Shown: one piece after another, positions 5,258 through 21,677 of the stretch
How the letters are laid out: every line of letters starts with the position of its first letter
Numbering within the stretch: the first letter of the stretch is position 1
Notes under the pieces: generated by a model
Told to the model about the DNA's origin: nothing
Databases searched by the model: none
The model's input: only the letters and a program-made list of their open reading frames with translations
Source of the DNA: Flavobacteriales bacterium
Lineage (GTDB): Bacteria > Bacteroidota > Bacteroidia > Flavobacteriales > Schleiferiaceae
Direction of reading: 5' to 3'
NCBI GenBank assembly: GCA_012269745.1
Contig: JAAXJR010000041.1
Span: 1-64,000, forward strand
Length of the DNA stretch: 64,000 bases
Made by a program: the position numbers and the translations under genes

Positions 5258-6462
5258 TGAAAGAACCACGTCTATTTCCAAATACAGTAGCCGGTGTCCT
5301 TGAGGCACTTGAAATGAGCTTTGGAAAGGGCATTTATGCAGACCGGGTAGTCGAAAGATTACTCAAGCAAAATAAAAAGTGGGGATCGCGTGATCGAAGT
5401 TTCGTTGCAGAGCACACCTATGAAATGGTGCGTTGGTGGGGCTTGTTATGGGCTCTTTACCAGCGTGAACCTTCCACCAAACGAAAGGACTTGCAAAAGC
5501 TCTTCGGCATCTATTGGCAATGGAGAGGTTATACCCTACCCGATTGGCCAAAGTTTGATGCAGTACGAGATTTTCCGGTAAAAGAGCGCTTAGCGCAATT
5601 AGACCGGATTCAAGATAAGGAGAGCTATTCTGAATGGTTCAATGATCTTGCAATGAGTCAATTGGGTGATAAATGGCCAGAGATTGCTCGGAACATGAAT
5701 GTTCCCAATACAGTGAATATTCGTGTGAATACCCTGAAGGCAAGCCCTGAAGAGGTGTTAGAAGAATTGGAAGCACATCACATAGAAGTGCACCCCCATC
5801 CTGTATTCGAAAATGCTTTTTACCTCGAAGGACGTCCAAGATTAAACAATATACCTGGATTTCAGAATGGAAATTTTGAAGTTCAAGATGCCGGTTCTCA
5901 GCAAATAGGATATTTCTTGAACCCTTCTCCGGGAAGCACAACCATTGATGCGTGTGCAGGTGCAGGTGGTAAGACCCTGCTCCTAGGTGCATTGATGCAA
6001 AATCAGGGTCAGCTCATCGCCATGGATGTTGAGGGTCGAAAGCTAGGAGAACTCAAGAAGAGAACACAGCGGAGCGGTTTAGATATCGTAGATACGAGAG
6101 CTTGGGAAGAACCGAAGATTTTAGACAAACTCACTGAAACCGCCGACTACCTCTTGTTGGATGTCCCTTGTTCTGGAACGGGTGTCATAAAGCGAGAACC
6201 AGATACGAAATGGAAGTTGCAGCCAGAGCATTTAGAGCGACTTGAGGGTGTTCAAGCCGATATTCTCCACCGTTATCCTAGAATGCTCAAATCAGGAGGT
6301 ACGCTTGTTTATGCGACCTGTAGTATTTTACCAATGGAAAATGGTCATCAGGTACGACAGTTTTTGGAAAACAATGATGATTTTGAATTGGTCGAAGAGC
6401 GTACTGTTGACCCTGGAGCCCATAATGACGGCTTCTACATGGCAAAAATGAAGAAGAAATGA
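5257..6462 (+). CDS. RsmB/NOP-family rRNA (cytosine-C5) methyltransferase
   Basis: A 401-residue AdoMet-dependent RNA methyltransferase. The N-terminal part (1-130) is an NusB-like helical domain, followed by the catalytic Rossmann fold: motif I DACAGAGGKT at 231-240, motif IV DVPCSGTG with Cys305 and motif VI ATCS with Cys355. The two cysteines are the release and nucleophile pair of m5C RNA methyltransferases. This architecture fits 16S rRNA C967-type methylation (RsmB), although the exact base is not certain. It overlaps the E1 gene by one base and murQ by four (ATGA), so it is mid-operon. Confidence 0.9.
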   Translation: MKEPRLFPNTVAGVLEALEMSFGKGIYADRVVERLLKQNKKWGSRDRSFVAEHTYEMVRWWGLLWALYQREPSTKRKDLQKLFGIYWQWRGYTLPDWPKFDAVRDFPVKERLAQLDRIQDKESYSEWFNDLAMSQLGDKWPEIARNMNVPNTVNIRVNTLKASPEEVLEELEAHHIEVHPHPVFENAFYLEGRPRLNNIPGFQNGNFEVQDAGSQQIGYFLNPSPGSTTIDACAGAGGKTLLLGALMQNQGQLIAMDVEGRKLGELKKRTQRSGLDIVDTRAWEEPKILDKLTETADYLLLDVPCSGTGVIKREPDTKWKLQPEHLERLEGVQADILHRYPRMLKSGGTLVYATCSILPMENGHQVRQFLENNDDFELVEERTVDPGAHNDGFYMAKMKKK

Positions 6463-7271
6463 GGACCACAGAACAGGATAGCTTGCATGTAAACCTAGAA
6501 CAAAAGAGTGTTTCTGATTTAGTGCATGGAATCAATTCCGAAGATCAAAAGGTGGCACATGCTGTTGGTGAGCAAATCCCTTCCATCACTGCTTTCATTG
6601 AGGCTTTGGTGCCTCGTATGGAGCAAGGTGGACGCCTGTTCTACATTGGTGCAGGAACTTCGGGGCGACTTGGAATTCTAGATGCCAGCGAATGCCCTCC
6701 CACTTTTGGCGTTAGTCATGATCTGGTCATCGGCCTAATAGCCGGTGGTGATAGTGCCATTCGCAAGGCTGTTGAAAATGCTGAAGACAACACCACAGGC
6801 GCTTGGAACGATTTACAAGCGTACGAGATAAATTCATTAGATACCGTTGTTGGGATTGCTGCTAGTGGCACCACGCCGTACGTTATTGGAGGAATTGAGG
6901 CTGCGAACAAACATGGGCTGTTAACCGGTTGTATTACATGTAACGATGGGAGTCCCCTAGGAATGGCGGCTCAGCACGAGATTGCTGTAGTTGTCGGTCC
7001 TGAGTTTCTCACAGGCTCTACACGTATGAAATCTGGAACTGCCCAGAAGATGGTACTGAACATGATTACTACGGCTACCATGATCAAATTAGGGCGTGTG
7101 AAAGGCAACAAAATGGTAGATATGCAACTTTCCAACGATAAGTTGGTAGATCGTGGCACACGCATGGTTGCTGACGAGCTCGGTATCGAGAGTGAATTGG
7201 CGCAGGAATTACTATTAAAACACGGCAGTGTAAGAGCTGCTGTAGATTCGTACAACCATGAGCGGAAATAA
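6459..7271 (+). CDS. murQ: N-acetylmuramic acid 6-phosphate etherase
   Basis: A 270-residue SIS-domain enzyme that removes the lactyl ether from MurNAc-6-phosphate to give GlcNAc-6-phosphate in cell-wall recycling. Diagnostic segments are FYIGAGTSGRLGILDASE, GLIAGGDSA, GIAASGTTPYVIGG and the etherase signature TGSTRMKSGTAQKM. Length is normal for the shorter Bacteroidota form. The ATG lies within the preceding stop (ATGA), and the 3' end overlaps the next small gene by 14 bases. AnmK, the usual kinase partner, is not in the window. Confidence 0.96.
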   Translation: MRTTEQDSLHVNLEQKSVSDLVHGINSEDQKVAHAVGEQIPSITAFIEALVPRMEQGGRLFYIGAGTSGRLGILDASECPPTFGVSHDLVIGLIAGGDSAIRKAVENAEDNTTGAWNDLQAYEINSLDTVVGIAASGTTPYVIGGIEAANKHGLLTGCITCNDGSPLGMAAQHEIAVVVGPEFLTGSTRMKSGTAQKMVLNMITTATMIKLGRVKGNKMVDMQLSNDKLVDRGTRMVADELGIESELAQELLLKHGSVRAAVDSYNHERK

Positions 7272-7479
7272 AAGCAATCAAGATCTCATCGTCGCAGGCC
7301 TATTTCGACTGGCTTGGTCCTTCCCCTTTATATTCGTTGGACCGTCACTTTATATCGGAAAAGGAACCAGTGGTGCATGGTATTGGACTGCTCTGTCTAT
7401 TGCCATCATGCTTGTTGCTGTATTTCTTGCCGTAAGTGGCCTACGCAAGGTTATGAGCGGCTTCTTCGACGGTAAGTAA
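7258..7479 (+). CDS. DUF6095-like small membrane protein
   Basis: A 73-residue protein with two membrane helices (about 10-32 and 41-64) separated by GKGTSGAW. It resembles the small DUF6095 proteins that follow murQ in other Flavobacteriia; that match is from memory and not verified. It overlaps murQ by 14 bases and ends one base before the convergent subtilase gene ends. Function unknown. Confidence 0.7.
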   Translation: MSGNKSNQDLIVAGLFRLAWSFPFIFVGPSLYIGKGTSGAWYWTALSIAIMLVAVFLAVSGLRKVMSGFFDGK

Positions 7480-9045
7480 TTAGATCTTAATGACCTTGGT
7501 GATTTGGGTTTTTGACCCTCTAGTTATTTGTAAAAAGTAGGTGCCAGCGGCAATGTAATCACCGGGTACCCATCGGAATTGGTAACGTCGCCCTGCAATT
7601 AGCTCACTTGCTACTATACGTCCGTACATATCTCTTAATTCCAAAGAAATATCTGTCGTATTGTCGTCTGGTAAGAAGAAAATAAGGTGGTCTGGAAATG
7701 GATTTGGATACACGACGATCTCAGTTCCTGGATTAGAATCCAAGTAATAGCGAGCAAACTTCATATTAGGGATGCCGTATCCAATGCGCTCGTTCTTAGT
7801 GTAATAATGCGAACTACTCACCTCCAAGGCTTTAATAACGTCTTGCGCCGTAGCACTGGGCGATGATTCCCATAGACAGGCAGCAGCTCCTGCAATAATT
7901 GGTGAACTAAAACTGGTTCCATTAGCTGGAGTAATGGTCCCATCAGGTCGATACACATAGGCACCTTCTCCCCTTGCACATACATTGGGTTTAATACGGC
8001 CATCGGTCGTATATCCGCGCGAACTAAAACCGCTGACGATTCCGAATTGGTTTACGGATCCTACAGTAAGAACGCTATCTGCATCCGCAGGCATGGTGAG
8101 TTTATTCCATGCTCCTCCTCCGGCATTACCGGCACTTGTAACAACGAGCATTCCAGTCCTCGCTGCAGCTACCGCGCCCAGTGAGATGATACTCGTACGT
8201 CCGTCGAGGTCATCAACTGTATAATTGTCACTAGGGTCGTCAAATTCACTGTATCCCAGCGAGCTATTGATGATATCCGCACCTATGGAATCTGCATATT
8301 CTGCCCCAGCAATCCAATTGTACATCTCCTCTGGCGTTTCACTGAGCTCCTTCTCTGTCTTCACCAATACGTATTGTGCCATTGGTGCCGTTCCTACAAA
8401 AACACCGTTTTTATCTGCTGCCATAGTACTTAGCACAGAGAAACCGTGCGAAGAACCTTGGTAGACATTGGTACCGCCCTCTACGAAGTTCCGCGTAGCT
8501 ATGATTTGACCGTAATCGTTAAAGTCTACAGTATTTGCTCCAACGAACCCAGCGTCCAATACTGCTATGACCATATCCGCGCCTATATATCCTCGATTAT
8601 GTAAACCTTCTACCAGTGTAATTTGATCGGCTTGGTCGGCGGCTATACCGTGATCATAAACGGGATTAATTGAAGTCGTTGTGTAGGTGTGACCGCTTAC
8701 TGGTACTATTTCTTTGATAAAGCTTAGTTCCGATAACGCAACTACCTCTTCAGCCGTGGCCTCGACATAAACGCTATTGAGCCATTTTGAATGCGGACCT
8801 TGATAAGAAACGATGTCTTCAATAGCTTCTAGTCGATCCAAGGATATGGGTAAATCTGAGCGTTTTACAGCTATATTTTGGTCTTCACGTCGCCGTAATG
8901 CGCGCTCCGACAAGAATTCTTGTGGATGATCTAGTTGATGGACGTTTTCTTTAGCAGTTAGAAAAACGCTGTAAGAATGGGTTTCCTGAGCCTCTGCAGC
9001 GCTCAGAAACAGCAAACATGCTATTACCACTCTTATATACTTCAT
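7480..9045 (-). CDS. Secreted subtilisin-like (S8) serine protease with T9SS C-terminal domain
   Basis: A 521-residue protein with a signal peptide cut after about residue 19 (AAEAQ). The subtilase triad is visible: Asp164 in AVLDAGF, His200 in GSSHGFSV and Ser378 in NGTSFSSP, with the oxyanion Asn307 in TSAGNAGG. The last 75 residues (starting VVYPNPFPD and ending TQITKVIKI) form a type A T9SS sorting domain that would direct secretion across the outer membrane. Residues 20-110 look like an inhibitor_I9-type propeptide. The gene lies one base downstream of mnmA on the same strand, an unlikely functional partner. Confidence 0.94.
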   Translation of the reverse strand: MKYIRVVIACLLFLSAAEAQETHSYSVFLTAKENVHQLDHPQEFLSERALRRREDQNIAVKRSDLPISLDRLEAIEDIVSYQGPHSKWLNSVYVEATAEEVVALSELSFIKEIVPVSGHTYTTTSINPVYDHGIAADQADQITLVEGLHNRGYIGADMVIAVLDAGFVGANTVDFNDYGQIIATRNFVEGGTNVYQGSSHGFSVLSTMAADKNGVFVGTAPMAQYVLVKTEKELSETPEEMYNWIAGAEYADSIGADIINSSLGYSEFDDPSDNYTVDDLDGRTSIISLGAVAAARTGMLVVTSAGNAGGGAWNKLTMPADADSVLTVGSVNQFGIVSGFSSRGYTTDGRIKPNVCARGEGAYVYRPDGTITPANGTSFSSPIIAGAAACLWESSPSATAQDVIKALEVSSSHYYTKNERIGYGIPNMKFARYYLDSNPGTEIVVYPNPFPDHLIFFLPDDNTTDISLELRDMYGRIVASELIAGRRYQFRWVPGDYIAAGTYFLQITRGSKTQITKVIKI

Positions 9046-10933: not shown

Positions 10934-12373
10934 TTACCACAAGTGAACCGGCAAGGATTGAATTAGTTCCACACCAAAATATACGGGACTGTAGGTGCCG
11001 CTTGGGAAGTATTTTTGTCTGAGGTTCATTTTGAGATTTGATAAGGGGCCAATTTTACTTTCAACTTGAACTCCAGGTGCAATCATCAGGCCAGAACCCA
11101 CCTCTATTCCACCACCACCAGCAATGCCAGAAGTTAAGTCTACACCGTATCTGAAAGTTTCGCTATTTTTCATAAACGCTGCACTAAATAATCCCTCTGC
11201 ATAAGCACCGTAACCGCCACTGGCAGCCCAGAACGTATGACCATAGGCATCCAACGAATAGTTCTCATTGCTCCATGCCTCAATGCCTAGCCCCATGGAT
11301 ATACCTGACATTGGATTGTAAGGAGAACCGTTTCTGTCTATTCCGGGAGAACGCTGTTGTCCCACTCCGGCCAACACTTTTAAGGCTACCTCGCGTGAGT
11401 CTTTATAAGTGCTTTCCGCTCCTCCATAATGAAAACCTAAAGAGCTCTTGAAATCTAGATGTCGGCTGTAGGAAACGAAGGGAATAGAAGCTTCATCGCT
11501 TAGCGCCGTCCATTGTCCTACGCTGAATTGGTGCCCACCAAACTGGGCACCAGCACTTACCATTGTAGATATTCCGCCACCTGTGTATACGCCACCACCA
11601 CCTCCGGAGCCTAGATGGGTGCGAAAGAAAAGGCGTTGTGAAAGTGTATTGAATCGTAACCCCATGGAATAATTCATATACCCGTCAATGTAGCCCAATG
11701 CACCCGCTCCTAGTTGCAGCTCACCCCCAACGGTATGATTGGAGTTTAAGTATTGTCCGACACGTACACCTGCATAAGCACTTTGCACCGGTTCACTATT
11801 GCGAGAAGCATCTTCCGGTCCTAAGAACCAAAGACCAGTGACCAATTCGAAGTAGGTTGGATAATAGCTGTTGTGGCCGCTATATTCTATTCGATAAGGC
11901 AATACATGTGTGTAGCCAACAGATATATGATTCGAGTTAATGGCTCCTGAAGGGAAATTGATGTGATTGTAGACAACATCCACTATCCCGTATTTGCTCT
12001 TAACACTCATTCCCGCATACCCACGGTACATTAATCCATCGCCGTCTGGGGCACCTGCACCGCCTCCAGAGGCTAGCGATCCACCCATATGAGCAAATAT
12101 CCATGGACGTATATATTGATACACACCTCCTGTAAATCCGAAGGCATAGAAACCACCATAATTACCTAAAACAGCACTCTGGGTCTCTAGACCACCAGAA
12201 ATGGAGGTTTTTGTCTTCGTATAATCCTTGACTAATTCGAACCGCTGAGTGACCCACGTCATTGGTGTTGGCCCCTGTAAATTTTCTAACTGGAGAGATG
12301 TCGAAGTCCCTTGAGCTAAAGCAGTAGAAGTAAAAACTACGGCAAGGAAAAAAGAGAATATTGATTTGGACAT
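10934..12373 (-). CDS. Predicted outer-membrane protein, tri-glycine-cluster family (copy A)
   Basis: A 479-residue protein with a signal peptide (cut near LAQG, residue 21) and alternating hydrophobic/polar strands throughout, ending with an aromatic residue (VHLW) as outer-membrane barrels do. I do not recognise the family. It carries three glycine clusters at residues about 102-108, 257-261 and 419-422, spaced by about 155-160 residues and each inside a similar module (LASGGGAG, HLGSGGGGG, IAGGGG followed by a second small Gly-rich turn). The gene at 12970-14328 has the same plan. ATG 12373 is chosen over TTG 12379 because the promoter element covers the latter. Confidence 0.75.
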   Translation of the reverse strand: MSKSIFSFFLAVVFTSTALAQGTSTSLQLENLQGPTPMTWVTQRFELVKDYTKTKTSISGGLETQSAVLGNYGGFYAFGFTGGVYQYIRPWIFAHMGGSLASGGGAGAPDGDGLMYRGYAGMSVKSKYGIVDVVYNHINFPSGAINSNHISVGYTHVLPYRIEYSGHNSYYPTYFELVTGLWFLGPEDASRNSEPVQSAYAGVRVGQYLNSNHTVGGELQLGAGALGYIDGYMNYSMGLRFNTLSQRLFFRTHLGSGGGGGVYTGGGISTMVSAGAQFGGHQFSVGQWTALSDEASIPFVSYSRHLDFKSSLGFHYGGAESTYKDSREVALKVLAGVGQQRSPGIDRNGSPYNPMSGISMGLGIEAWSNENYSLDAYGHTFWAASGGYGAYAEGLFSAAFMKNSETFRYGVDLTSGIAGGGGIEVGSGLMIAPGVQVESKIGPLSNLKMNLRQKYFPSGTYSPVYFGVELIQSLPVHLW

Positions 12374-12376
12374 ATA

Positions 12377-12384
12377 CAAATATA
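12377..12384 (-). promoter_or_regulatory. -7 element TATATTTG fused to the upstream terminator
   Basis: Exact TAnnTTTG match on the minus strand, three bases before the ATG at 12373. Its first T is also the last T of the terminator tract of the upstream gene, so termination of one gene and initiation of the next share DNA. Confidence 0.6.
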
Positions 12385-12411
12385 AAAAGCCCGCTCATTG
12401 CTGAACGGGCC
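12384..12411 (-). terminator. Rho-independent terminator of the 12440-12895 gene
   Basis: On the minus strand GGCCCG, a 12-base loop, CGGGC, then TTTTT. The perfect five-base core stem (12389-12393 with 12406-12410) and T-tract follow the stop codon of the 151-residue barrel gene by about 28 bases. Confidence 0.75.
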
Positions 12412-12439
12412 TTAACTCAAGTTTATGGTAATTGTTTGT

Positions 12440-12895
12440 TTAGTATAGTTTGTAGATCAAACCGATACTTACGTCGCTGTTTTCTGTATAAGGCGCTAGG
12501 AATACCTGTGGGCTTACATAGAGCTTGTCTGTAATTTCGTAGCGCAAAGAAGCACGAGCACCTAAGCGCAACGGGTAGATTGGAAAATTGTAAAATAGAC
12601 CGTTAGTCCAAGCTCCTGCACTAACTGTTCCTTCCCATTTTGGGAAATCATATCCTCTCCAACGGTAACGCGGAGCTAGATAGAAAATGTCCATAGCCGA
12701 TCCAGGGTGAAACAGATCTGTTCGAGCGAATCCTTCCATACCTACTCCCATTTCAAATTCTGCGGCAGCGGTAAGTTGGTGTCCCTGGAATCCGAAGTAG
12801 TAACCTAGTTCATATTCAGTAGGGATGTTTACTGATTGTGCCTTAGAAGCAAAGCCAAAGGCAATGAAAGTTAAAGTAAGTAGTAGCTTTTTCAT
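12440..12895 (-). CDS. Small predicted outer-membrane beta-barrel protein
   Basis: A 151-residue protein with a signal peptide (cut after SKAQ, residue 20) and repeated amphipathic strands ending in IGLIYKLY, consistent with an eight-stranded barrel. The C-terminal segment ITDKLYVSPQVFL resembles the tail ITERISFNPKVIY of the neighbouring 12970-14328 protein, so the three genes of this block may be distantly related. It has its own promoter (12924-12953) and terminator (12384-12411), so it is a single-gene unit. Function unknown. Confidence 0.75.
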   Translation of the reverse strand: MKKLLLTLTFIAFGFASKAQSVNIPTEYELGYYFGFQGHQLTAAAEFEMGVGMEGFARTDLFHPGSAMDIFYLAPRYRWRGYDFPKWEGTVSAGAWTNGLFYNFPIYPLRLGARASLRYEITDKLYVSPQVFLAPYTENSDVSIGLIYKLY

Positions 12896-12923
12896 TTTGT
12901 AGTATTAATAGCTTAATTCTCTA

Positions 12924-12953
12924 CGAATATATAACCATAATCGATATTACAAA
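12924..12953 (-). promoter_or_regulatory. Promoter of the small barrel gene
   Basis: TTTG (12950-12953) - 18 bases - TATATTCG (12924-12931) on the minus strand. The -7 element has one mismatch to TAnnTTTG, while -33 and spacing are good. It lies 28 bases before the ATG at 12895. Confidence 0.6.
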
Positions 12954-12969
12954 GTATCTAATACTCCTG

Positions 12970-14328
12970 TTACGCTTTTGTGAAAGGTATTTTATACCCA
13001 AGTCCTAATTGATATCCCCATTTCGGGAAAGCGGTGGTCGAATAAACATTGTAAATCACCTTCGGATTAAATGAAATTCTCTCTGTTATCGGGACATCTA
13101 CTCCTGCATTAGCAAATACTAATCCTGCTCCATTCCAGAGGTTGATACCTCCGCCTGCACCTGCACCTATCTGAGCTTCAACGTAGGCCCAGCCTGGCTG
13201 TAGACGCAGTCCAAACAATCCTTCGGCATAGGCTCCTCTTCCATCAGTGAAGGCCCAATAACTCTCGCCACGAAGACTCAACCATCCCTCTTTGTACAAT
13301 TGGAATGCAATGCCGAGGTTTGAGAATCCTGATGATCCCAAGTAGGTTCTAACTGAATTTTCAATAAGTAAATCTGCCGGTGAAAATCCACTTCTGTTAC
13401 TATTTTGAGAATCGAATGTTAGTTCTGTACCCAAATGAAGGCCTACGAACGAAAAATAAAATGGTCCGTCAAAACTTTTCAAGATGCCAGCGCTTGTTCC
13501 TAATAAGAACTGGCCCGTATGAAACTGAACCTCTGAACCTGCCCCATATAAAATTCCGCCACCTGCGGGGGCTCTACCTCCACCACCAGTGCCTAAGTTA
13601 AGTTCTCCTAAAAGCCGAACGGAACCGAATTGTGTCCAAGCTCCATATCCGCCGTAGACATCCATATATCCACCAAGATCAGTAACCGCCGCGGTTAAAT
13701 ACACGCTCTGGTAGGTCCAATCCTGAAAAGATCGACCACCAACACCAATAAAACCTATAGAGCTGCCTCGCTCATTAATGTTACTTAGTACAGTATTGGT
13801 AAAGAGTTGTACGTGGGAAGATCGCTCTAAAGGGACATTAAAATCTATCGACTTGTTTAAACTGAAATAGGCACTTGATCCTGTAATGACACCAGTACTC
13901 ACATAGCTGTATTGCGCGCCAACACCTATGGTGTATTCTCCTATGCGCTTATCCACAGTGAAAGCAGGTGAGATGAACCAACCAGAACCGTCATTGCTTT
14001 CAGCACCACCCCCGGAGGTGAACATTAAACGAGGGTGTAAATTTAATTCACCGGTCAAGGGTAAAATAGCACCTGCATGGTAACCGAAAGTATAGTACCC
14101 TGCCCGTATGCCCCATGCAGCATTATTCAACCTTATACCACCGTATACAGGCAATGTTGGATGATGAAGACTCGCTCCAGTACCAAAAAATCCGATAGGC
14201 TCCTTTGGCGCCTCATTAACTGTGAGGTAATCGAAATTTATGGAAGTTAGTTGTCCGAAAGCGCTGGAAGCGCCAATCATTACGAATAGAATAGATAGCT
14301 TTGTGGTAATGAAAGTACTTCTACGCAT
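12970..14328 (-). CDS. Predicted outer-membrane protein, tri-glycine-cluster family (copy B)
   Basis: A 452-residue protein from ATG 14328, with signal peptide MRRSTF...SAFGQ, then strand-rich sequence to a barrel-like end (YQLGLGYKIPF). Three glycine clusters lie at residues about 106-108, 248-251 and 392-394 (TSGGGAE, GTGGGGRAPAGGG, GAGGGINLW), spaced about 143 residues, matching the plan of the 10934-12373 protein; both also contain GAYAEGLF before the third cluster. No known family recognised. An upstream in-frame start (14439) would lack a signal peptide at the N-terminus and run through the divergent gene, so it is rejected. Its first 20 coding bases overlap the divergent gene's start. 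Confidence 0.75.
   Translation of the reverse strand: MRRSTFITTKLSILFVMIGASSAFGQLTSINFDYLTVNEAPKEPIGFFGTGASLHHPTLPVYGGIRLNNAAWGIRAGYYTFGYHAGAILPLTGELNLHPRLMFTSGGGAESNDGSGWFISPAFTVDKRIGEYTIGVGAQYSYVSTGVITGSSAYFSLNKSIDFNVPLERSSHVQLFTNTVLSNINERGSSIGFIGVGGRSFQDWTYQSVYLTAAVTDLGGYMDVYGGYGAWTQFGSVRLLGELNLGTGGGGRAPAGGGILYGAGSEVQFHTGQFLLGTSAGILKSFDGPFYFSFVGLHLGTELTFDSQNSNRSGFSPADLLIENSVRTYLGSSGFSNLGIAFQLYKEGWLSLRGESYWAFTDGRGAYAEGLFGLRLQPGWAYVEAQIGAGAGGGINLWNGAGLVFANAGVDVPITERISFNPKVIYNVYSTTAFPKWGYQLGLGYKIPFTKA
14296..14303 (+). promoter_or_regulatory. -7 element TAGCTTTG of the secreted Cys/His protein gene
   Basis: Exact TAnnTTTG match five bases before ATG 14309, located inside the coding sequence of the divergent gene. 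Implies a leaderless mRNA; no -33 element seen. Confidence 0.6.
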
Positions 14329-14728
14329 CTTCTTGGTTTGGATTTTTACATTGGTTAATGTGCAAGTTAGCGCACAAACCAAAATTGATTCAAATACTGT
14401 TGAAGAAATAGTCGTTTTTACAACCCGCGGAATTAACACCTCTGGTGCTCGTTACCACCTTGATGGATGTAGGTATCTGAAGAATGGTCAAATAAACATT
14501 GATGAACGTAAAGCATTGCAAAGGGGATTACTCCCATGCAGTGTCTGCCTACCAGAGCGAACCTCTGACCTTCCTCAATTGAGAGAAAAGAAAGTGGTTC
14601 AAAAGAAGGTGGTCTTCAGAAAATGTGGGTTTAAAACCGCAAGTGGCGCTAAATGTGAAAGAGAGGCCATCCCGGATAGTCGCTATTGTGAGTTACACAA
14701 GACACGCACTAAGAAAAAGAAACGCTAG
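14309..14728 (+). CDS. Secreted protein with two Cys/His-rich (possible zinc) motifs
   Basis: A 139-residue protein with a signal peptide (cut after VSAQ, about residue 23). Residues about 45-80 carry the pattern YHLDGCRYL...PCSVC, seen at the C-termini of many secreted nucleases and related proteins (YHxxxCxxL...A...G..PCxxC). Residues about 103-130 carry a second pattern, CGFKTASGAKCEREA then YCELH, like the DUF5763-type C-x-TxxGxxCxR...YCxxH motif. The tail is strongly basic (KTRTKKKKR). No enzymatic domain is present, so binding of metal or nucleic acid is the most that can be inferred. Confidence 0.75.
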   Translation: MKVLLRIFLVWIFTLVNVQVSAQTKIDSNTVEEIVVFTTRGINTSGARYHLDGCRYLKNGQINIDERKALQRGLLPCSVCLPERTSDLPQLREKKVVQKKVVFRKCGFKTASGAKCEREAIPDSRYCELHKTRTKKKKR

Positions 14729-15157: not shown

Positions 15158-15188
15158 TTTCTTACGTGAGTAAAGGTTCTTAGGTTTG
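15158..15188 (+). promoter_or_regulatory. Promoter of the heptose guanylyltransferase/phosphatase gene
   Basis: TTT (15158-15160) - 20 bases - TAGGTTTG (15181-15188); exact -7 consensus 15 bases before ATG 15204. Confidence 0.6.
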
Positions 15189-15203
15189 AGCAAAGTACTA
15201 AAA

Positions 15204-16496
15204 ATGAAGGTAGCTCTAATACTTGCTGGAGGAAAAGGAACCCGTTTAGCACAAGTGCGTAACGACATCCCCAAACCAATGATGCCTGTTTTGGGAAAAC
15301 CCATTTTAGAGTATCAGATCAATCTTCTCAAGGAACACGACTTTACCGATGTTTGGCTTATAGTTAATCATCTGTACCATCACATTGAAGATCACTTCGG
15401 CAATGGCGAGCGGTTTGGTATCAACATTCATTATTATGTGGAACCTTCGCCACTAGGCACTGTCGGCGGTGTTAAAGCCCTTGAAAAGCAATTGACAGAA
15501 CCGTTCATTGTGTTGTATGGCGACGTAATGATGAACATGGATCTAAGTCGATTAATTGCGTTCCATAAATCGAAAAAAGCAGATGCAACACTAGTTGTAC
15601 ACCCGAACGACCACCCTTACGACAGTGATTTATTGGACGTGGATGAAAACGATAAGGTATGTGCCTTTTACGCAAAGCCCCACCCTGAAGGTCTGGTGTA
15701 TAGAAACTTAGTAAATGCGGCTGCCTATGTTTTCAATCCTGTTGTTTTAGATCATTTAGAGGAAGGAGTTAAAGCCGATTTCGGTAAGGATATCTTCCCT
15801 ACCCTTCACGAAAAGCTAAACGTCTACGCATATAATACACCTGAATATCTCAAGGATATGGGCACACCAGATCGATTAGAAAAAGTCGAAAACGCCATTT
15901 CCTCAGGAAAAGTGGCTGCTCGAAATCTGAACAACCCACAAAAATGTGTCTACCTCGATCGCGACGGTGTCATCAACATAGACACAGACCTTATTCACCG
16001 CCCAGAAGACTTCGAGCTCTACCCTTACGCAGCCGATTGCATCAAGAAACTGAATAAAATGGGCTATCTCGTAGTTGTAGTGACCAACCAAAGTGTCATT
16101 GCACGTGGCCTTTGTACCATTGAAGGATTGGGCAATATCCATAAGAAAATGGAAACCCAATTAGGTGAACAAGGCGCCTTTGTAGAGGCTATTTACTTCT
16201 GTCCCCACCACCCGCACGGCGGTTTTGAAGGTGAAGTCCCGGAGTATAAGATTCCTTGTGAATGTCGCAAACCTTCTCCTGGAATGCTCCTTCAAGCCAA
16301 GGAAAGATTCAATATTGACTTAAGCCAAAGCTTCTTAGTGGGAGATTCACCTAGAGATATAGAAGCAGGTCAGAACGCTGGAGTGACCACCATTCGTGTT
16401 AAGACGGGCCACGGTATGAAGCCACACACGGCTGTTCCGGATCATTATGTGGACTCTTTGATAGAAGCCATAGCAATTATTGAAGCACACGCTTAA
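15204..16496 (+). CDS. Fused heptose-1-phosphate nucleotidyltransferase and heptose-bisphosphate phosphatase
   Basis: A 430-residue two-domain protein. Residues 1-235 are a nucleotidyltransferase (LILAGGKGTRLAQ, IPKPMMPVLGKPILEYQ, PLGTVGG, YGDVMMNMD) like HddC. Residues about 243-430 are a HAD-IIIA phosphatase like GmhB (YLDRDGVINID, VVVTNQSVIARG, the CxH zinc loop FCPHHPHGG...PCECRKPSPGM, VGDSPRDIEAG). Together these would dephosphorylate heptose-1,7-bisphosphate and activate heptose-1-phosphate to a nucleotide sugar. The kinase of the same pathway is encoded at 61400-62383. ATG 15204 is preferred to TTG 15186, which lies in the promoter. The stop shares TTAA with the convergent tamB stop. 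Confidence 0.88.
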   Translation: MKVALILAGGKGTRLAQVRNDIPKPMMPVLGKPILEYQINLLKEHDFTDVWLIVNHLYHHIEDHFGNGERFGINIHYYVEPSPLGTVGGVKALEKQLTEPFIVLYGDVMMNMDLSRLIAFHKSKKADATLVVHPNDHPYDSDLLDVDENDKVCAFYAKPHPEGLVYRNLVNAAAYVFNPVVLDHLEEGVKADFGKDIFPTLHEKLNVYAYNTPEYLKDMGTPDRLEKVENAISSGKVAARNLNNPQKCVYLDRDGVINIDTDLIHRPEDFELYPYAADCIKKLNKMGYLVVVVTNQSVIARGLCTIEGLGNIHKKMETQLGEQGAFVEAIYFCPHHPHGGFEGEVPEYKIPCECRKPSPGMLLQAKERFNIDLSQSFLVGDSPRDIEAGQNAGVTTIRVKTGHGMKPHTAVPDHYVDSLIEAIAIIEAHA

Positions 16497-19400
16497 TCGC
16501 CCAGTACTTTCTCAAACTCCTTGTGGTAAAGGATGCCTACTCCTTGGGTGTATGGCCCTGAATTCTGCATCAACGGGTCATTACGGTTACTTCTATTGAA
16601 AGCACGCAATTTGATTTTTCCGTCCTTTGTGACGGAATACACTACTTCGGTGTCCCCCAAAAGCAATGTCGAAGCACCGCTTTGTTCTATTGGGATATCC
16701 AGAGATGAATTGACACTTAATCTTCCGTCTAGGAAATCTTTACCCAGGCCAATATTTAAGTTGTTCTGTGTATTTCCGAGTGTTGCATAAGGATTGGTAC
16801 CACTGGTATAATCGAGCTCTAGATCTACATAGGAACCAATGCCAGCGGCAAGCCAACTACCAAATTCACTGACTAAAAGCTCAGAGGTGTTTCGTCCTAC
16901 GGAACCTCCAATATCAAATCCCTCCTGGACCGCTAAATCTTGCTGATAAAATTCGCCCAGCAAGAGCAAAGAGAAAGCCTGGTAATTCATGGCATCTTCA
17001 TTCAAGAAATGACGTTCTAGCTCTTCTAGATAACTTGCCGGCGCATTAGGAAGGTCCACAGAAAAGGCAATATCCGGGTTCATTAGCGCACCGCTAAGGT
17101 TAATTATGAGGTCTACATCGACGTTTTCATTGTTGTAATTGGCATTAGTCACTAGCCCTTGTAAATCTGTTGACAGAGAATATTTAGCATCGATATTCAC
17201 CTGCGCTTCGTATAGATCTCCACTCCAAAGTATGGTCCCGCCTGGGATGACTTCAAACGGCTTGTTGATGATATTTTGCAGCGTGAACAAATAATCACCA
17301 CTTTTCAGGGTGTACAAACCATATAACTCTAGACTTTCGTCCTCGAGGAGTTTTAATCGTAGGTTTCCACTACCCCGAGCTTTAATCACATCCCCTAAAA
17401 CTTCATCTAAAACTAGTTCCATAGCGGCTTCAGGTGTGGCCTGGATGGCTATGTCGGTGGTGAAGTATTCGAGATCTTGGGCAATCGTCGTATCCGATTT
17501 CGGAAGATTCGCATCTGTAAACCTGATGTACGAAGGCATCTCTACTGCAGTAGGATTATCAAGTGGGATCTTGAAATTTGTTCCATCTTTGGTGGCGACA
17601 GTAAGATCGAGGTGTAGCTGTTCCAATAGCCCTTCTAGAAGCAGGTCCCCCATCACCACTGCTGTTCCATAGAAATACCCGTCAATATTCCGCGCCATAT
17701 CGACAGCTCTTATACTGTCTCCATGAAGCTTTAGGTCAAAATTGATACTATCAAATCTATTATGAGTTATGCCTCCATAAACAGTAGCCAACGTACTGTC
17801 TGCGGGCACGAAGAAAACGGTTGAGTCTAAGGTAATCGCCTTCTCCGTTATTTCTATCTCTAGTGGCTCGGCTGTACTTAATTCCGCCCCTACAATTGGC
17901 ACAGTAAAATGACCCTCAGTGAGCGTAAAGGCACCATTTAAACTGTATTGATTGAGAGGACCATAAAGTTCCAATCCGCCTTGAACATTACCCGTTAATT
18001 CATCTAGAATCCCTCCGAGCATTGGGTTGAAGCTATTTATGGCAAACGCGTCTAAACTAGCACGTAGATCAATTTCCTCTTTCTCAAGATCAAGACCTCC
18101 ATTAAAATAGAAAGAGCTTCGACTGCCTTGTCTTAACTGTCCTCTGAAGGTCAGATCTTGGAGTTTTTTAAGGCGAGCATTGGCTGTAAATTTCCCATAC
18201 TCGTATCCATTAAAACCAAAATCCTTGTACAGGAGCTGAGCACTAATATTCGGTTTGTCAAGCGTATTGGTCAGCGTAATTGTAGAATTCAATTTGCCGG
18301 AGAGCACGGCATCCGGACTGCGCAAAATGTAGTTCAACACCTTCGAATCGAGCGCATCTACGAAGAAGTTTAGCTTTGGTTCTTTACTGGTTAAAAGCTC
18401 CCCAGAAAGCGTAAAGGAACCATCTTCGCCTTCTACAACTAAAGAGTCTACGTCAAGTAAATCGGCCTGCCATTTTAAATGCGCTTGTTCTTTCAGGGCA
18501 AATGAGGATTCGCCAATGTTAAAGGAGAGTTCAGACAGTGAAGCAAAGCCACTATTCAAAGTTCCCGACAAAGAAAGTTTTGAAGGAATGGAATCTTCTA
18601 CGGTGCCTTGAAAACGAATGTTTTTCTGAAGATTCTGCCCGTTAGAACTAAGGTTCAAACCGCTCAATAGCCAGTCATTAACGCTTAATTGATCTGCTTT
18701 GAAAGTACTGTTATGAACCAACCCTGATTGTGAAGAAGCTAACATAACGGAATGCGCCTCTACCCCTTCGAATCGCGCTAAAGGCACGAACATAGTGGTC
18801 GACCAAGTTTTTTGTTCATCATTGTATTTCCCGAAGATGTGCGAGTCCTCACTCAGGTCAAGGTCGAAATGTGCCAGATCTGCGATCCAGCCTACATTCC
18901 CCGCTTGGATGTCAAACTTGAATTGACTCTTTGGCCAAATCGTAGGCTTTTGGACTATGATATCTTGGAAAACATGTGCTCCAACTTTCGCAAAGTCATT
19001 AAAGTTCCAACGACCGTTTATCGAAAAATCGAGGACATCGCTCGAAAGCTCTAGACTACGAGCCTTGTTAGTTAACATATGAGTTAGGGACAACTCTCGC
19101 AGGAACACCACGTCTTGTGGACGTTGCAATACTACATCTTGAAGCATAAGTGCACCTAGTCCTTCATCTGAAAAATTAAGTGTTGCACTGGCCATCAGTG
19201 TTTGCCCAGTATCTAAGGGATCAATGAGTTCAAGGTTGAAACTATTCAGCTTGCCTTTGATTGCATTTAAACTGCCTTTGCGGCTTCCTTGGACCTCTAG
19301 ATCAAAATTTGGATCTAAGGAACTTATCCAAATGGTATCGCCTTGTGGTGTATGCTCATATTTAGCATTAATACCACGAACAATTATATCATTAGCGGTT

Positions 19401-20659
19401 AGCGAAGAGATGGCGGCTAACAGCTGAACATCTTGATTATTGACTATTGCCTCGATATTAGGCAATAGGCTGAATTGCGCCTTCAGTTGCTGCAAGGGAC
19501 CAAGCGCTAAATCATTGCTGTTCAAGGCCCCTCTTACAGGAAGCTCTAGTCCTTCGCTACTGAGCACCAAGTTGTTTTTTTTATCGGCTAATTCTATTTC
19601 CCAAGACGCGTCAGATAAATCCGTTTTTGCGCTTAAATTGATAGATTTCGGCTTAAAAACATCAAAAAACTCCTGAAAATCACCCAAAACCGCCCAATTA
19701 TAGAATTCTTTTTCTAATTCAATCTGCGAAGAAATCAAGTATTTGGCTCCGGCCAATTCTGAAACCTTTCCCGACAAATTATACCACCTATTTCCCCCGA
19801 ATATCCCTAAGGTCAACCCTGTAGAATCTGTGACCCCATTAAATCCTATCTGCGTTCCTTGGACTAATGGCTCGAAGTTAGCTGCCTCAAAATCGCCCAA
19901 AGAAAGGTGTGAGGAGGCCACTAGGTCACCTGTGAACATCAATTTATCCTCACCGCCTTCTAGGTGGCCGACTAACGTAGCTACGCTGTCCTTGACGATG
20001 GAATAATCTAGCGAATAATTCCCGTTTGGGGAAAGGTCTAGCTTACTCACTGCCACGGATGCGGCGTAAGGCGAGGCTCTTATATCGAGGTCAATGCCGG
20101 CTAAAGCCAGATTTTCTCCGACAATTAAGTGGTCTATGGTAAGTCGATTTGAAACAAGAATTGAATCAAAAGAGAATTGGAGCGTATCTATCCTAATGGA
20201 TCCTATATCCAGAGTCAAAGGACTATAATAGTCTGAAGATGAACTGCTTGAATCATTAAACTCATTCAACAGCGCTTCAAACCTCGAAGAGTTTAAATCG
20301 TCGACTATTCGTGCCGATGAAATACTCGTTGAACGGATTCCTAGCTCACCTGACCAAAACACATCGTTAATTGCCCACTCACCCAATTCTGCAAAGGGTT
20401 CATCGTAATAATAAACCGTTGTTGGGCGAAGCGCTATGGATGTAGGAAATGAATAATCCAAACCATTGAAGTCAATTTCTACATTGTATTCGGCGAGCAT
20501 GGGAGAAACAAAACGATCGAAAAGGCCTTGTTGTACGCTTTTAGAATTAAAAACGACGGTAAGTGAAACACTAGCAAATAATAGCAATAGAGAAAGCGTC
20601 ATTACGACGATTCTTAAGGGTCTATTGAACCTATTTTGCTGTACTTTTGACTCGTTCAT
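16493..20659 (-). CDS. tamB: TamB-like translocation/assembly protein
   Basis: A 1388-residue protein with one N-terminal membrane anchor (residues about 15-37, RIVVMTLSLLLLFASVSLT) and a long repetitive beta-rich periplasmic part, ending in the conserved TamB/DUF490 C-terminal domain (about 1000-1388: IKARGSGNLRLKLLEDESL, GDYLFTLQNIINKPFEV, GLGKDFLDGRLSV). TamB bridges inner and outer membranes and is tied to barrel assembly and phospholipid transport. Bacteroidota often pair it with a BamA-like partner; none is adjacent. ATG 20659 shares the palindrome CATG with the divergent tsaD start, and its stop shares TTAA with the gene on the other side. Confidence 0.9.
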   Translation of the reverse strand: MNESKVQQNRFNRPLRIVVMTLSLLLLFASVSLTVVFNSKSVQQGLFDRFVSPMLAEYNVEIDFNGLDYSFPTSIALRPTTVYYYDEPFAELGEWAINDVFWSGELGIRSTSISSARIVDDLNSSRFEALLNEFNDSSSSSSDYYSPLTLDIGSIRIDTLQFSFDSILVSNRLTIDHLIVGENLALAGIDLDIRASPYAASVAVSKLDLSPNGNYSLDYSIVKDSVATLVGHLEGGEDKLMFTGDLVASSHLSLGDFEAANFEPLVQGTQIGFNGVTDSTGLTLGIFGGNRWYNLSGKVSELAGAKYLISSQIELEKEFYNWAVLGDFQEFFDVFKPKSINLSAKTDLSDASWEIELADKKNNLVLSSEGLELPVRGALNSNDLALGPLQQLKAQFSLLPNIEAIVNNQDVQLLAAISSLTANDIIVRGINAKYEHTPQGDTIWISSLDPNFDLEVQGSRKGSLNAIKGKLNSFNLELIDPLDTGQTLMASATLNFSDEGLGALMLQDVVLQRPQDVVFLRELSLTHMLTNKARSLELSSDVLDFSINGRWNFNDFAKVGAHVFQDIIVQKPTIWPKSQFKFDIQAGNVGWIADLAHFDLDLSEDSHIFGKYNDEQKTWSTTMFVPLARFEGVEAHSVMLASSQSGLVHNSTFKADQLSVNDWLLSGLNLSSNGQNLQKNIRFQGTVEDSIPSKLSLSGTLNSGFASLSELSFNIGESSFALKEQAHLKWQADLLDVDSLVVEGEDGSFTLSGELLTSKEPKLNFFVDALDSKVLNYILRSPDAVLSGKLNSTITLTNTLDKPNISAQLLYKDFGFNGYEYGKFTANARLKKLQDLTFRGQLRQGSRSSFYFNGGLDLEKEEIDLRASLDAFAINSFNPMLGGILDELTGNVQGGLELYGPLNQYSLNGAFTLTEGHFTVPIVGAELSTAEPLEIEITEKAITLDSTVFFVPADSTLATVYGGITHNRFDSINFDLKLHGDSIRAVDMARNIDGYFYGTAVVMGDLLLEGLLEQLHLDLTVATKDGTNFKIPLDNPTAVEMPSYIRFTDANLPKSDTTIAQDLEYFTTDIAIQATPEAAMELVLDEVLGDVIKARGSGNLRLKLLEDESLELYGLYTLKSGDYLFTLQNIINKPFEVIPGGTILWSGDLYEAQVNIDAKYSLSTDLQGLVTNANYNNENVDVDLIINLSGALMNPDIAFSVDLPNAPASYLEELERHFLNEDAMNYQAFSLLLLGEFYQQDLAVQEGFDIGGSVGRNTSELLVSEFGSWLAAGIGSYVDLELDYTSGTNPYATLGNTQNNLNIGLGKDFLDGRLSVNSSLDIPIEQSGASTLLLGDTEVVYSVTKDGKIKLRAFNRSNRNDPLMQNSGPYTQGVGILYHKEFEKVLGD
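20642..20649 (+). promoter_or_regulatory. -7 element TACTTTTG of tsaD
   Basis: Exact TAnnTTTG match eight bases before the tsaD ATG at 20658, inside the tamB coding sequence. No clear -33 element at the usual distance. Confidence 0.6.
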
Positions 20660-21677
20660 GGACAACCTACCTTACATATTAGCGATTGAAAGCAGTTGTG
20701 ACGATACCTCCGCAGCAGTAATGCATGGAAACAAAGTGTTGTCGAACGAAGTAGCTTCTCAAGAGGTGCATACGGCTTATGGTGGAGTTGTTCCTGAATT
20801 GGCTTCACGGGCGCACCAACAAAACATTGTGCCTGTGGTCGACCATGCTTTAAAGGTAGCAAATATCGAACCTTCGCAGTTAAATGCTATTGCTTTTACC
20901 AACGGACCTGGATTAATGGGTTCATTGTTGGTAGGAACCTCTTTTGCCAAGAGCATTTCCATGTCCTTGAACATTCCGTTAATTCCTGTGCACCACATGC
21001 ATGCGCACATTTTAGCTCATCTGATCGAAGATGCGCACGACGAACCTATTGACTTTCCATTTTTGTGCCTAACCGTAAGCGGTGGACATACTCAGTTGGT
21101 CAAGGTAGATGGTCCAAAAGATATGCAGATTCTTGGCGAGACCATAGATGATGCGGTGGGTGAAGCTTTTGACAAGGCTGCCAAGATTATAGGCCTGCCC
21201 TACCCCGGAGGTCCTCACGTTGATCGTTTGGCCAAGGTTGGTGATCCAAAATTTATGGAATTTGGCAGACCACAAGTCGACGGGTACAATTTTAGTTTCT
21301 CTGGCATGAAGACGAGTTTCTTGTATGCCTTACAGAAACGTGTAAAAGAGAATCCAGATTTCGTAGAAAACCATAAAGCTGATATTTGTGCCAGCTATCA
21401 GCGTGCCTTGTTGGATGTATTGTTCAAGAAACTGGAAAAGGCCATAAAAGACACCGGGATAAAGCACGTTGCCATTGCTGGTGGTGTTAGTGCAAATTCT
21501 GGGCTACGCGAAAGACTTACCTCTTTAGGTTATCGTAAGAACATTCGCACTTATATCCCTCCTTTTCAATACACAACGGATAATGCAGCAATGATTGGAA
21601 TTGCTGGTTATTATAATTTCCTCGCAGGAGATTCGGCCGATTTAAGCATCTCTGCTTCGGCGAAAGTTAAGTTTTAG
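20658..21677 (+). CDS. tsaD: tRNA N6-threonylcarbamoyladenosine (t6A37) synthase subunit TsaD
   Basis: A 339-residue ASKHA-fold enzyme that transfers threonylcarbamoyl from its adenylate to A37 of ANN-decoding tRNAs. The metal-binding HMHAH motif is at residues 113-117; other signatures are ILAIESSCDDT, GGVVPELASR, GPGLMGSLLVG, VSGGHTQL and AIAGGVSANSGLR. Start 20658 gives the normal N-terminus; an upstream in-frame ATG would run antisense through tamB. The pathway partner sua5 is in this window at 37961-38905. Confidence 0.96.
   Translation: MDNLPYILAIESSCDDTSAAVMHGNKVLSNEVASQEVHTAYGGVVPELASRAHQQNIVPVVDHALKVANIEPSQLNAIAFTNGPGLMGSLLVGTSFAKSISMSLNIPLIPVHHMHAHILAHLIEDAHDEPIDFPFLCLTVSGGHTQLVKVDGPKDMQILGETIDDAVGEAFDKAAKIIGLPYPGGPHVDRLAKVGDPKFMEFGRPQVDGYNFSFSGMKTSFLYALQKRVKENPDFVENHKADICASYQRALLDVLFKKLEKAIKDTGIKHVAIAGGVSANSGLRERLTSLGYRKNIRTYIPPFQYTTDNAAMIGIAGYYNFLAGDSADLSISASAKVKF

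Follow-up and report, generated by a model that had tools for sequence, protein, structure and literature searches.

Outer membrane β-barrel proteins of solved structure usually comprise one barrel per chain, and their oligomers are assembled from separate chains. Proteins that carry several barrels on one chain were reportedly described in PNAS in 2021 by Solan et al. (doi 10.1073/pnas.2104059118). Here, we describe two genes, termed A and B, that encode predicted triple-barrel outer membrane proteins. They are located on the minus strand of a 64,000-nucleotide stretch (the window) of contig JAAXJR010000041.1 of a Flavobacteriales bacterium (assembly GCA_012269745.1), at positions 10934 to 12373 (A) and 12970 to 14328 (B). 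All coordinates are positions in the window, and residue numbers are those of the proteins, with B following the numbering of P0002.

According to the survey of 2021 as summarized in later reports (PMC8592465, PMC11494523), multibarrel outer membrane proteins have been a known kind since then, and as far as these summaries go, they resemble A and B in that a single secreted chain contains more than one complete barrel. Compared to the proteins covered in this way, the A/B family is set apart by exactly three homologous eight-stranded barrels attributed to one triplication, by its occurrence in several phyla, and by glycine-rich barrel rims. The dual-barrel proteins GfcD and YjbH (PMC8592465, PMC11494523, PMC9603273) of the group 4 capsule and yjb operons of E. 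coli also place more than one barrel on a chain, but their two barrels are unlike each other, with 12 and 13 strands, and are separated by a periplasmic domain, whereas A and B have three alike eight-stranded barrels joined by short linkers and show no Pfam match. Fused porins had been noted even earlier (PMC4827864). These fused OMPPs of TCDB family 1.B.4 (MnoP, 1115-amino-acid three-domain protein) contain two or three complete barrels per chain; however, the barrels belong to different families, the proteins are from alpha-proteobacteria, and one unit has not been triplicated in them (PMC4827864). At the level of the individual unit, the fold resembles that of OmpW, OmpA, OprF-N, and NspA (Z 12 to 17), and some units have weak sequence similarity to PF13505, but these proteins possess a single barrel per chain and lack glycine clusters of the kind found here. 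Homotrimeric porins of the OmpF type offer an analogy, with three barrels side by side, yet they consist of three separate 16-stranded chains, and no homology to A or B has been shown. Our literature search retrieved no description of the A/B family. The statement of the initial annotation, a model's reading of the DNA, that it knew of no described family with this plan has to be tempered, as the placement of several barrels on one chain has been described. The A/B family appears to be a new family within the known multibarrel kind, and its homologous, strictly threefold architecture shared across phyla is its distinctive feature.

Internal triplication and conserved glycine clusters

Gene A encodes a protein of 479 amino acids with an N-terminal signal-like segment and an aromatic C-terminus (...PVHLW), and gene B encodes a protein of 452 amino acids, whose N-terminus is signal-like as well. 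Both open reading frames (ORFs) had been listed in the initial annotation, although without their strand, and are real. On the minus strand, the gene order is B, a 151-amino-acid ORF (P0003, 12440 to 12895), and A. A BLASTP comparison of A with B gave an E value of 3e-4 and about 26% identity, and the two proteins can be matched over their full length in the family alignment; as judged from their sequences, they are paralogues. For A, B, and P0003, no match was obtained in Pfam or NCBIfam, even at an E value of 10, and sequence searches of the PDB with A and with the family profile revealed no relative. Hence, A and B belong to an unrecognized outer membrane family, as had been supposed, and none of these databases contained the strong hit to a known porin family that would have spoken against this view. 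PF13505 (OMP_b-brl) gave a weak match for 8 of 39 family units, with a best E value of 3.9e-6; A and B themselves gave none and stayed below the curated cutoff of this family.

Homologues were gathered from whole genomes and from named genome contigs and combined into a family alignment of 72 sequences. Profile-profile alignment of the thirds of the protein (U1 to U3) gave E values of 1.4e-16 for U1-U2 (119 columns), 7e-17 for U1-U3 (118 columns), and 2.6e-26 for U2-U3 (121 columns), whereas controls with a reversed partner reached only 1.7e-4 to 0.04. When the glycine runs were masked, the E values were still 8e-11, 4e-13, and 2.5e-22, respectively, and the triplication therefore does not depend on the glycines. 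Moreover, all eight strands and three rim motifs correspond between the units. These alignments identify A and B each as a genuine internal triplication, as the initial annotation had suspected from the three glycine clusters.

In A, runs of at least three glycines start at residues 103, 257, and 419, i.e., with spacings of 154 and 162 residues. The clusters comprise residues 103 to 105 (12059 to 12067), 257 to 261 (11591 to 11605), and 419 to 422 (11108 to 11119), each located where strand 5 ends and loop 5-6 begins in units 1, 2, and 3, respectively. In B, the runs start at residues 107, 249, and 393, with spacings of 142 and 144 residues, and the clusters extend over residues 107 to 109 (14005 to 14013), 249 to 252 (13576 to 13587), and 393 to 395 (13147 to 13155). 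The third cluster is preceded in both proteins by the motif GAYAEGLF, which in unit 3 of A (residues 389 to 396; 11186 to 11209) covers loop 3-4 and the beginning of strand 4 and in B occupies residues 366 to 373 (13213 to 13236); at the equivalent place, units 1 and 2 of A have GGFYAFGF and DGYMNYSM, respectively. The glycine pattern of one protein would be merely suggestive and in need of independent support, since among shuffled sequences of the same composition, about 15% had three or more clusters, and about 0.8% had three at nearly equal spacing (P of about 0.008 per protein). Among the homologues, however, the glycines at residues 103 to 105 of A are present in 72 of 72, the core of cluster 2 in 69 to 71, and that of cluster 3 in 71. 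At the sequence level, this conservation, together with the homology of the thirds over their whole length, settles the reality of the pattern.

Predicted structure

The structures of both proteins were predicted using AlphaFold2. The model of A, obtained with the 72-row alignment, had a predicted local distance difference test (pLDDT) value of 88.9 and a predicted template modeling score (pTM) of 0.82, and features 24 strands, which DSSP assigned in three groups of eight to residues 21 to 158 (unit 1; 11900 to 12313), 170 to 310 (unit 2; 11444 to 11866), and 327 to 478 (unit 3; 10940 to 11395). The model of B (pLDDT of 85.1, pTM of 0.74) again displays 24 strands in an 8+8+8 arrangement, with units at residues 28 to 163 (13843 to 14250), 172 to 306 (13414 to 13818), and 317 to 452 (12976 to 13383). 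In both models, the loops are short, with about 5 to 10 residues.

Superposition on known structures indicated that the units are closed upon themselves. Unit 1 of A matched the designed eight-stranded barrel 6x9z (Z 15.9, 2.1 Å, 116 of 120 residues), and unit 3 of A matched OmpW (Z 17.0, 2.6 Å, 140 residues) and OprF-N (Z 16.9, 1.9 Å) and also superposed on NspA and OmpA; unit 2 of B matched NspA (Z 16.5, 2.2 Å, 133 residues) and 6x9z (Z 16.1, 1.8 Å, 114 of 120 residues). The superpositions of the A model on closed eight-stranded barrels had Z values of 16 to 17 and root mean square deviations (RMSDs) of 1.9 to 2.6 Å over 123 to 140 residues, and those of all three units taken together had Z values of about 16 to 17 and RMSDs of 1.8 to 2.7 Å. 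According to the models, units 1 and 3 of A and unit 2 of B thus fold as closed transmembrane barrels of the OmpW/OmpA/NspA type, and with two matches in A and one in B, all three unit positions are represented. For unit 2 of A, whose profile is homologous to those of units 1 and 3, and for units 1 and 3 of B, the assignment as a barrel is by homology, complemented for unit 3 of B by a weaker match to CarO (Z 11.9 over residues 317 to 448). Several complete transmembrane barrels are therefore predicted for each chain, as is known for multibarrel proteins, rather than a single continuous 24-stranded sheet as in an usher. The signal-like N-termini and the hydrophobic outer faces of most strands would fit a putative insertion of A and B into the outer membrane, and the pTM values of 0.82 and 0.74 suggest a compact and fixed packing of the three barrels in the models.

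As eight-stranded barrels usually have both termini in the periplasm, the glycine clusters would by analogy lie at the extracellular end. Each barrel is proposed to carry one common glycine-rich rim motif with three elements: loop 3-4 and strand 4 contribute an Ala/Gly-Gly-aromatic turn, strand 5 ends in a GGGGG run, and strand 6 begins with GxG. The outer faces of most strands are hydrophobic, while the inner faces of strands 3 to 5 are polar and rich in glycine. The glycine clusters were also considered as the interface between barrels, but this assignment became less likely, as glycine points mostly into the barrels and the outer faces of strands 3 to 6 are hydrophobic. Less hydrophobic outer faces occur at strands 1 and 2 and at strand 8 of U2, and the interface more likely lies away from the clusters.

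We consider it likely that A and B are paralogues within an unnamed outer membrane family whose members possess three homologous eight-stranded barrels per chain derived from one ancient triplication. Three complete barrels would be arranged next to each other, resembling a trimer built from one chain. Their ancestor, a protein with one barrel of the OmpA/OmpW/OMP_b-brl type, would have been triplicated once, with the number three being kept ever since. Two points weigh against this interpretation: the predicted fold comes from AlphaFold2 models whose input alignments share the triplication, and the mutual arrangement of the barrels is deduced from pTM rather than from direct observation. The initial annotation had instead placed the repeats in one large barrel. 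A single 24-stranded barrel with threefold internal repeats would account for the total of 24 strands in both A and B and for the high whole-chain pTM, and internal repeats within single barrels are known (PMC6340704). We nevertheless regard it as very improbable, because segments cut from the wall of a large barrel would not superpose on closed barrels over all eight strands at 1.8 to 2.7 Å, as the units do, and because whole-chain Foldseek searches yielded just low-TM matches to large barrels (TM of 0.13 to 0.31; query TM of 0.13 to 0.28). The structure prediction that had been proposed as a check hence recovered repeated, closed units, but three barrels instead of one. Even less credible is the explanation that no true triplication exists and that generic β-hairpin similarity and glycine richness only mimic repeats. 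Outer membrane barrels are indeed hairpin-repeat proteins (PMC6340704), and clusters as such arise by chance at the frequency given above, but hairpin similarity would hardly produce colinear alignments of 118 to 121 columns that stay strong without glycine runs, are lost on reversal, and bring eight strands and three rim motifs into register.

Beyond three barrels per chain, A and B might represent an obligate one-chain trimer with a pseudo-threefold axis, in which the three glycine rims form one functional surface site, which always has three units and which has spread horizontally between phyla; this extended proposal is clearly the more speculative one, and we put it forward tentatively. 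A defined site is favored over a generic filler because of the strict number of three, the common rim motif, and the short loops. If true, such a trimer would add a new type of architecture to those serving transport or recognition. With the number fixed at three over long evolutionary distances, the family is a clean example in nature, and a widespread one, of alike barrels combined on one chain. It raises the questions of how the β-barrel assembly machinery (BAM) can fold three barrels and let them go although just one strand, the last, is at the end of the chain, why there are three barrels, and what role the repeated glycine rim plays.

Distribution and evolutionary history

Homologues were found in Flavobacteriales, Pedobacter, Chlorobiaceae, Prochlorococcus, Mariprofundus, and one Verrucomicrobiota metagenome-assembled genome (MAG), whereas the plasmid search gave no match and viral contigs contained no relative. 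A surface protein that had lacked an annotation in green sulfur bacteria and in abundant marine bacteria (Prochlorococcus, Polaribacter) thereby obtains an identity. The chains have a length of about 450 to 520 residues, and the three spaced glycine clusters reported in the initial annotation are kept in 69 to 72 of the 72 homologues. A scan with unit profiles detected six units in the window genome, i.e., two genes of three. Of 395 Bacteroidota genomes scanned, 24 contained members; those that appeared complete had three units, or six in two genes, the exceptions being a fragment at a contig edge (G516), a truncated second copy (G648), and a marginal hit with an E value of 9e-5 (G525).

A tree was calculated from 63 units of members from Flavobacteriales, Pedobacter, Chlorobiaceae, Prochlorococcus, and Mariprofundus; the member of the Verrucomicrobiota MAG (L143) was not part of the trees. 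U1 and U3 each formed one clade (21 of 21 in both cases), with U2 placed between them. Since U1 and U3 are each a single clade across phyla, the triplication probably occurred once, before the spread of the family. In the tree of full-length proteins, A and B of the window genus stand apart from the other Bacteroidota members, and Mariprofundus is placed next to Chlorobiaceae. Occurrence is patchy, with members in 6 of 171 Bacteroidota genera, a distribution consistent with loss and horizontal transfer. The Prochlorococcus members are flanked by ordinary cyanobacterial genes in 20 loci and therefore do not represent contamination. As an additional feature, the Prochlorococcus members (L140 to L160, except L143) carry an N-terminal extension of about 80 residues ahead of the first barrel.

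Gene neighborhoods and possible function

The neighborhoods of the homologues differ between clades. In Polaribacter, FdhD and a molybdopterin oxidoreductase are encoded directly upstream of the single-copy homologue in 22 of 24 loci; in Tenacibaculum, a SPOR-like protein precedes the homologue in all 24 loci, and FdhD is found upstream in 20 of them. In two Chlorobiaceae genomes (L163, positions 5678 to 8897 of that locus, and L167), genes for an Nramp protein and a universal stress protein (Usp) are located directly upstream. These Nramp/Usp and FdhD/molybdopterin neighbors may be taken as a hint at metals or oxyanions. Several further features of these loci were observed. In the Polaribacter locus L104 (2886 to 7518), the gap between the homologue and the upstream genes is 12 bp. 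Two copies are present in a Flavobacteriaceae genome (G066), and one of them (L172) is located next to the genes for FdhD and for another, large molybdopterin enzyme. Downstream in L163, genes read by eye resemble a sulfide/thiosulfate oxidation cluster (flavocytochrome c, Sox), and in several Prochlorococcus loci, a solute-binding protein, iron-related by appearance, is encoded 2 to 4 kb upstream of the homologue.

With low confidence, we propose that A and B act as a narrow channel or as a surface protein. The favored function is that of a cell surface channel in which three narrow hydrophilic barrels would conduct small solutes or ions, although we would not rate it as probable. Several points speak against it. 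The neighborhood is not conserved across clades, polysaccharide genes lie near the members in Mariprofundus, Verrucomicrobiota, and some Chlorobiaceae, and the neighbors in the window genus are MnmA, a MORN-type protein, and a subtilase; furthermore, eight-stranded barrels are often closed, and R, K, H, E, and Y are among the residues facing inward, which resembles the closed cores of OmpA-like barrels. A role mainly in structure or surface recognition, e.g., as a coat protein, adhesin, or phage receptor without transport function, appears about as tentative as the channel. The allelic exchange of A and B described below, the presence of two paralogues side by side, and the fact that eight-stranded barrels such as OmpA and OmpX often are no channels would fit such a role, but the predicted loops of about 5 to 10 residues are unlike those of typical adhesin barrels, and the conserved positions are located in the barrel rims instead of in variable loops. 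Export of polysaccharides or glycolipids, in analogy to the dual-barrel GfcD/YjbH or Wzp porins, seems less likely than either. It is suggested by three settings, namely, SLBB/Poly_export, Wzz, and GT4 genes adjoining the Verrucomicrobiota member, GT4, DUF218, and other glycan genes adjoining the Mariprofundus member, and GDP-sugar, DUF218, and NusG-like genes adjoining some of the Chlorobiaceae members, and GfcD is itself a multibarrel protein of a capsule operon (PMC8592465, PMC11494523). Most members, i.e., those of Polaribacter, Tenacibaculum, Prochlorococcus, the other Chlorobiaceae, and the window genus, have no such neighbors, so that export was rejected as the common function of the family; in addition, eight-stranded barrels are far narrower than polysaccharide porins with 12 to 18 strands, and none of 12 full-length members or 39 units matched a polysaccharide export barrel in Pfam.

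Allelic exchange and the surrounding genes

The window locus was compared with loci L175 to L187 with respect to exchange of A and B. Between the window genome (G000) and its sister genome G007, identity is 96% for MnmA, 99% for P0003, and 92% for B, but only 42% for A. Compared to G021, in contrast, MnmA (96%) and A (91%) are similar, but B shares 69% identity, and compared to G023, the flanking genes are 60 to 79% identical, but A is 91% identical. These identities indicate that alleles of A and B have been swapped between species of the genus, separately from each other and from the flanking genes, a behavior resembling that of surface proteins under recognition. Within the triple-barrel reading favored here, the variable parts would be swapped between strains, probably as phages or grazers recognize the protein.

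In the genomes of the genus, B and A lie next to each other, and the gene for P0003, a secreted, barrel-like protein, is located between them in 4 of 25 genomes and present only there, with 50 to 99% identity among the four copies; no relative was detected elsewhere in 60 genomes searched. The initial annotation had described this protein as resembling a single unit. While the ORF is real, P0003 was rejected as a detectable single unit of the family: it has no glycine cluster, and its hhalign E values against the unit profiles (0.007 to 0.04) are inside the range of the reversed controls.

The genes for the MORN-type protein, MnmA, and the subtilase follow A closely on the same minus strand. 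On the other side, B and a 162-amino-acid ORF on the plus strand (14240 to 14728) are arranged head to head, and their start codons lie in an overlap of about 20 bases at 14309 to 14328. The natural start of the 162-amino-acid ORF is that of the signal peptide MKVLLRIF at 14309, and aligned positions in relatives suggest that the head-to-head arrangement has been kept. Further along the plus strand, a gene at 15186 to 16496, read by eye, appears to encode a fused sugar nucleotidyltransferase and GmhB-like heptose phosphatase; it adjoins the gene of a TamB-like protein (16493 to 20665), which suggests that envelope glycan genes are located nearby.

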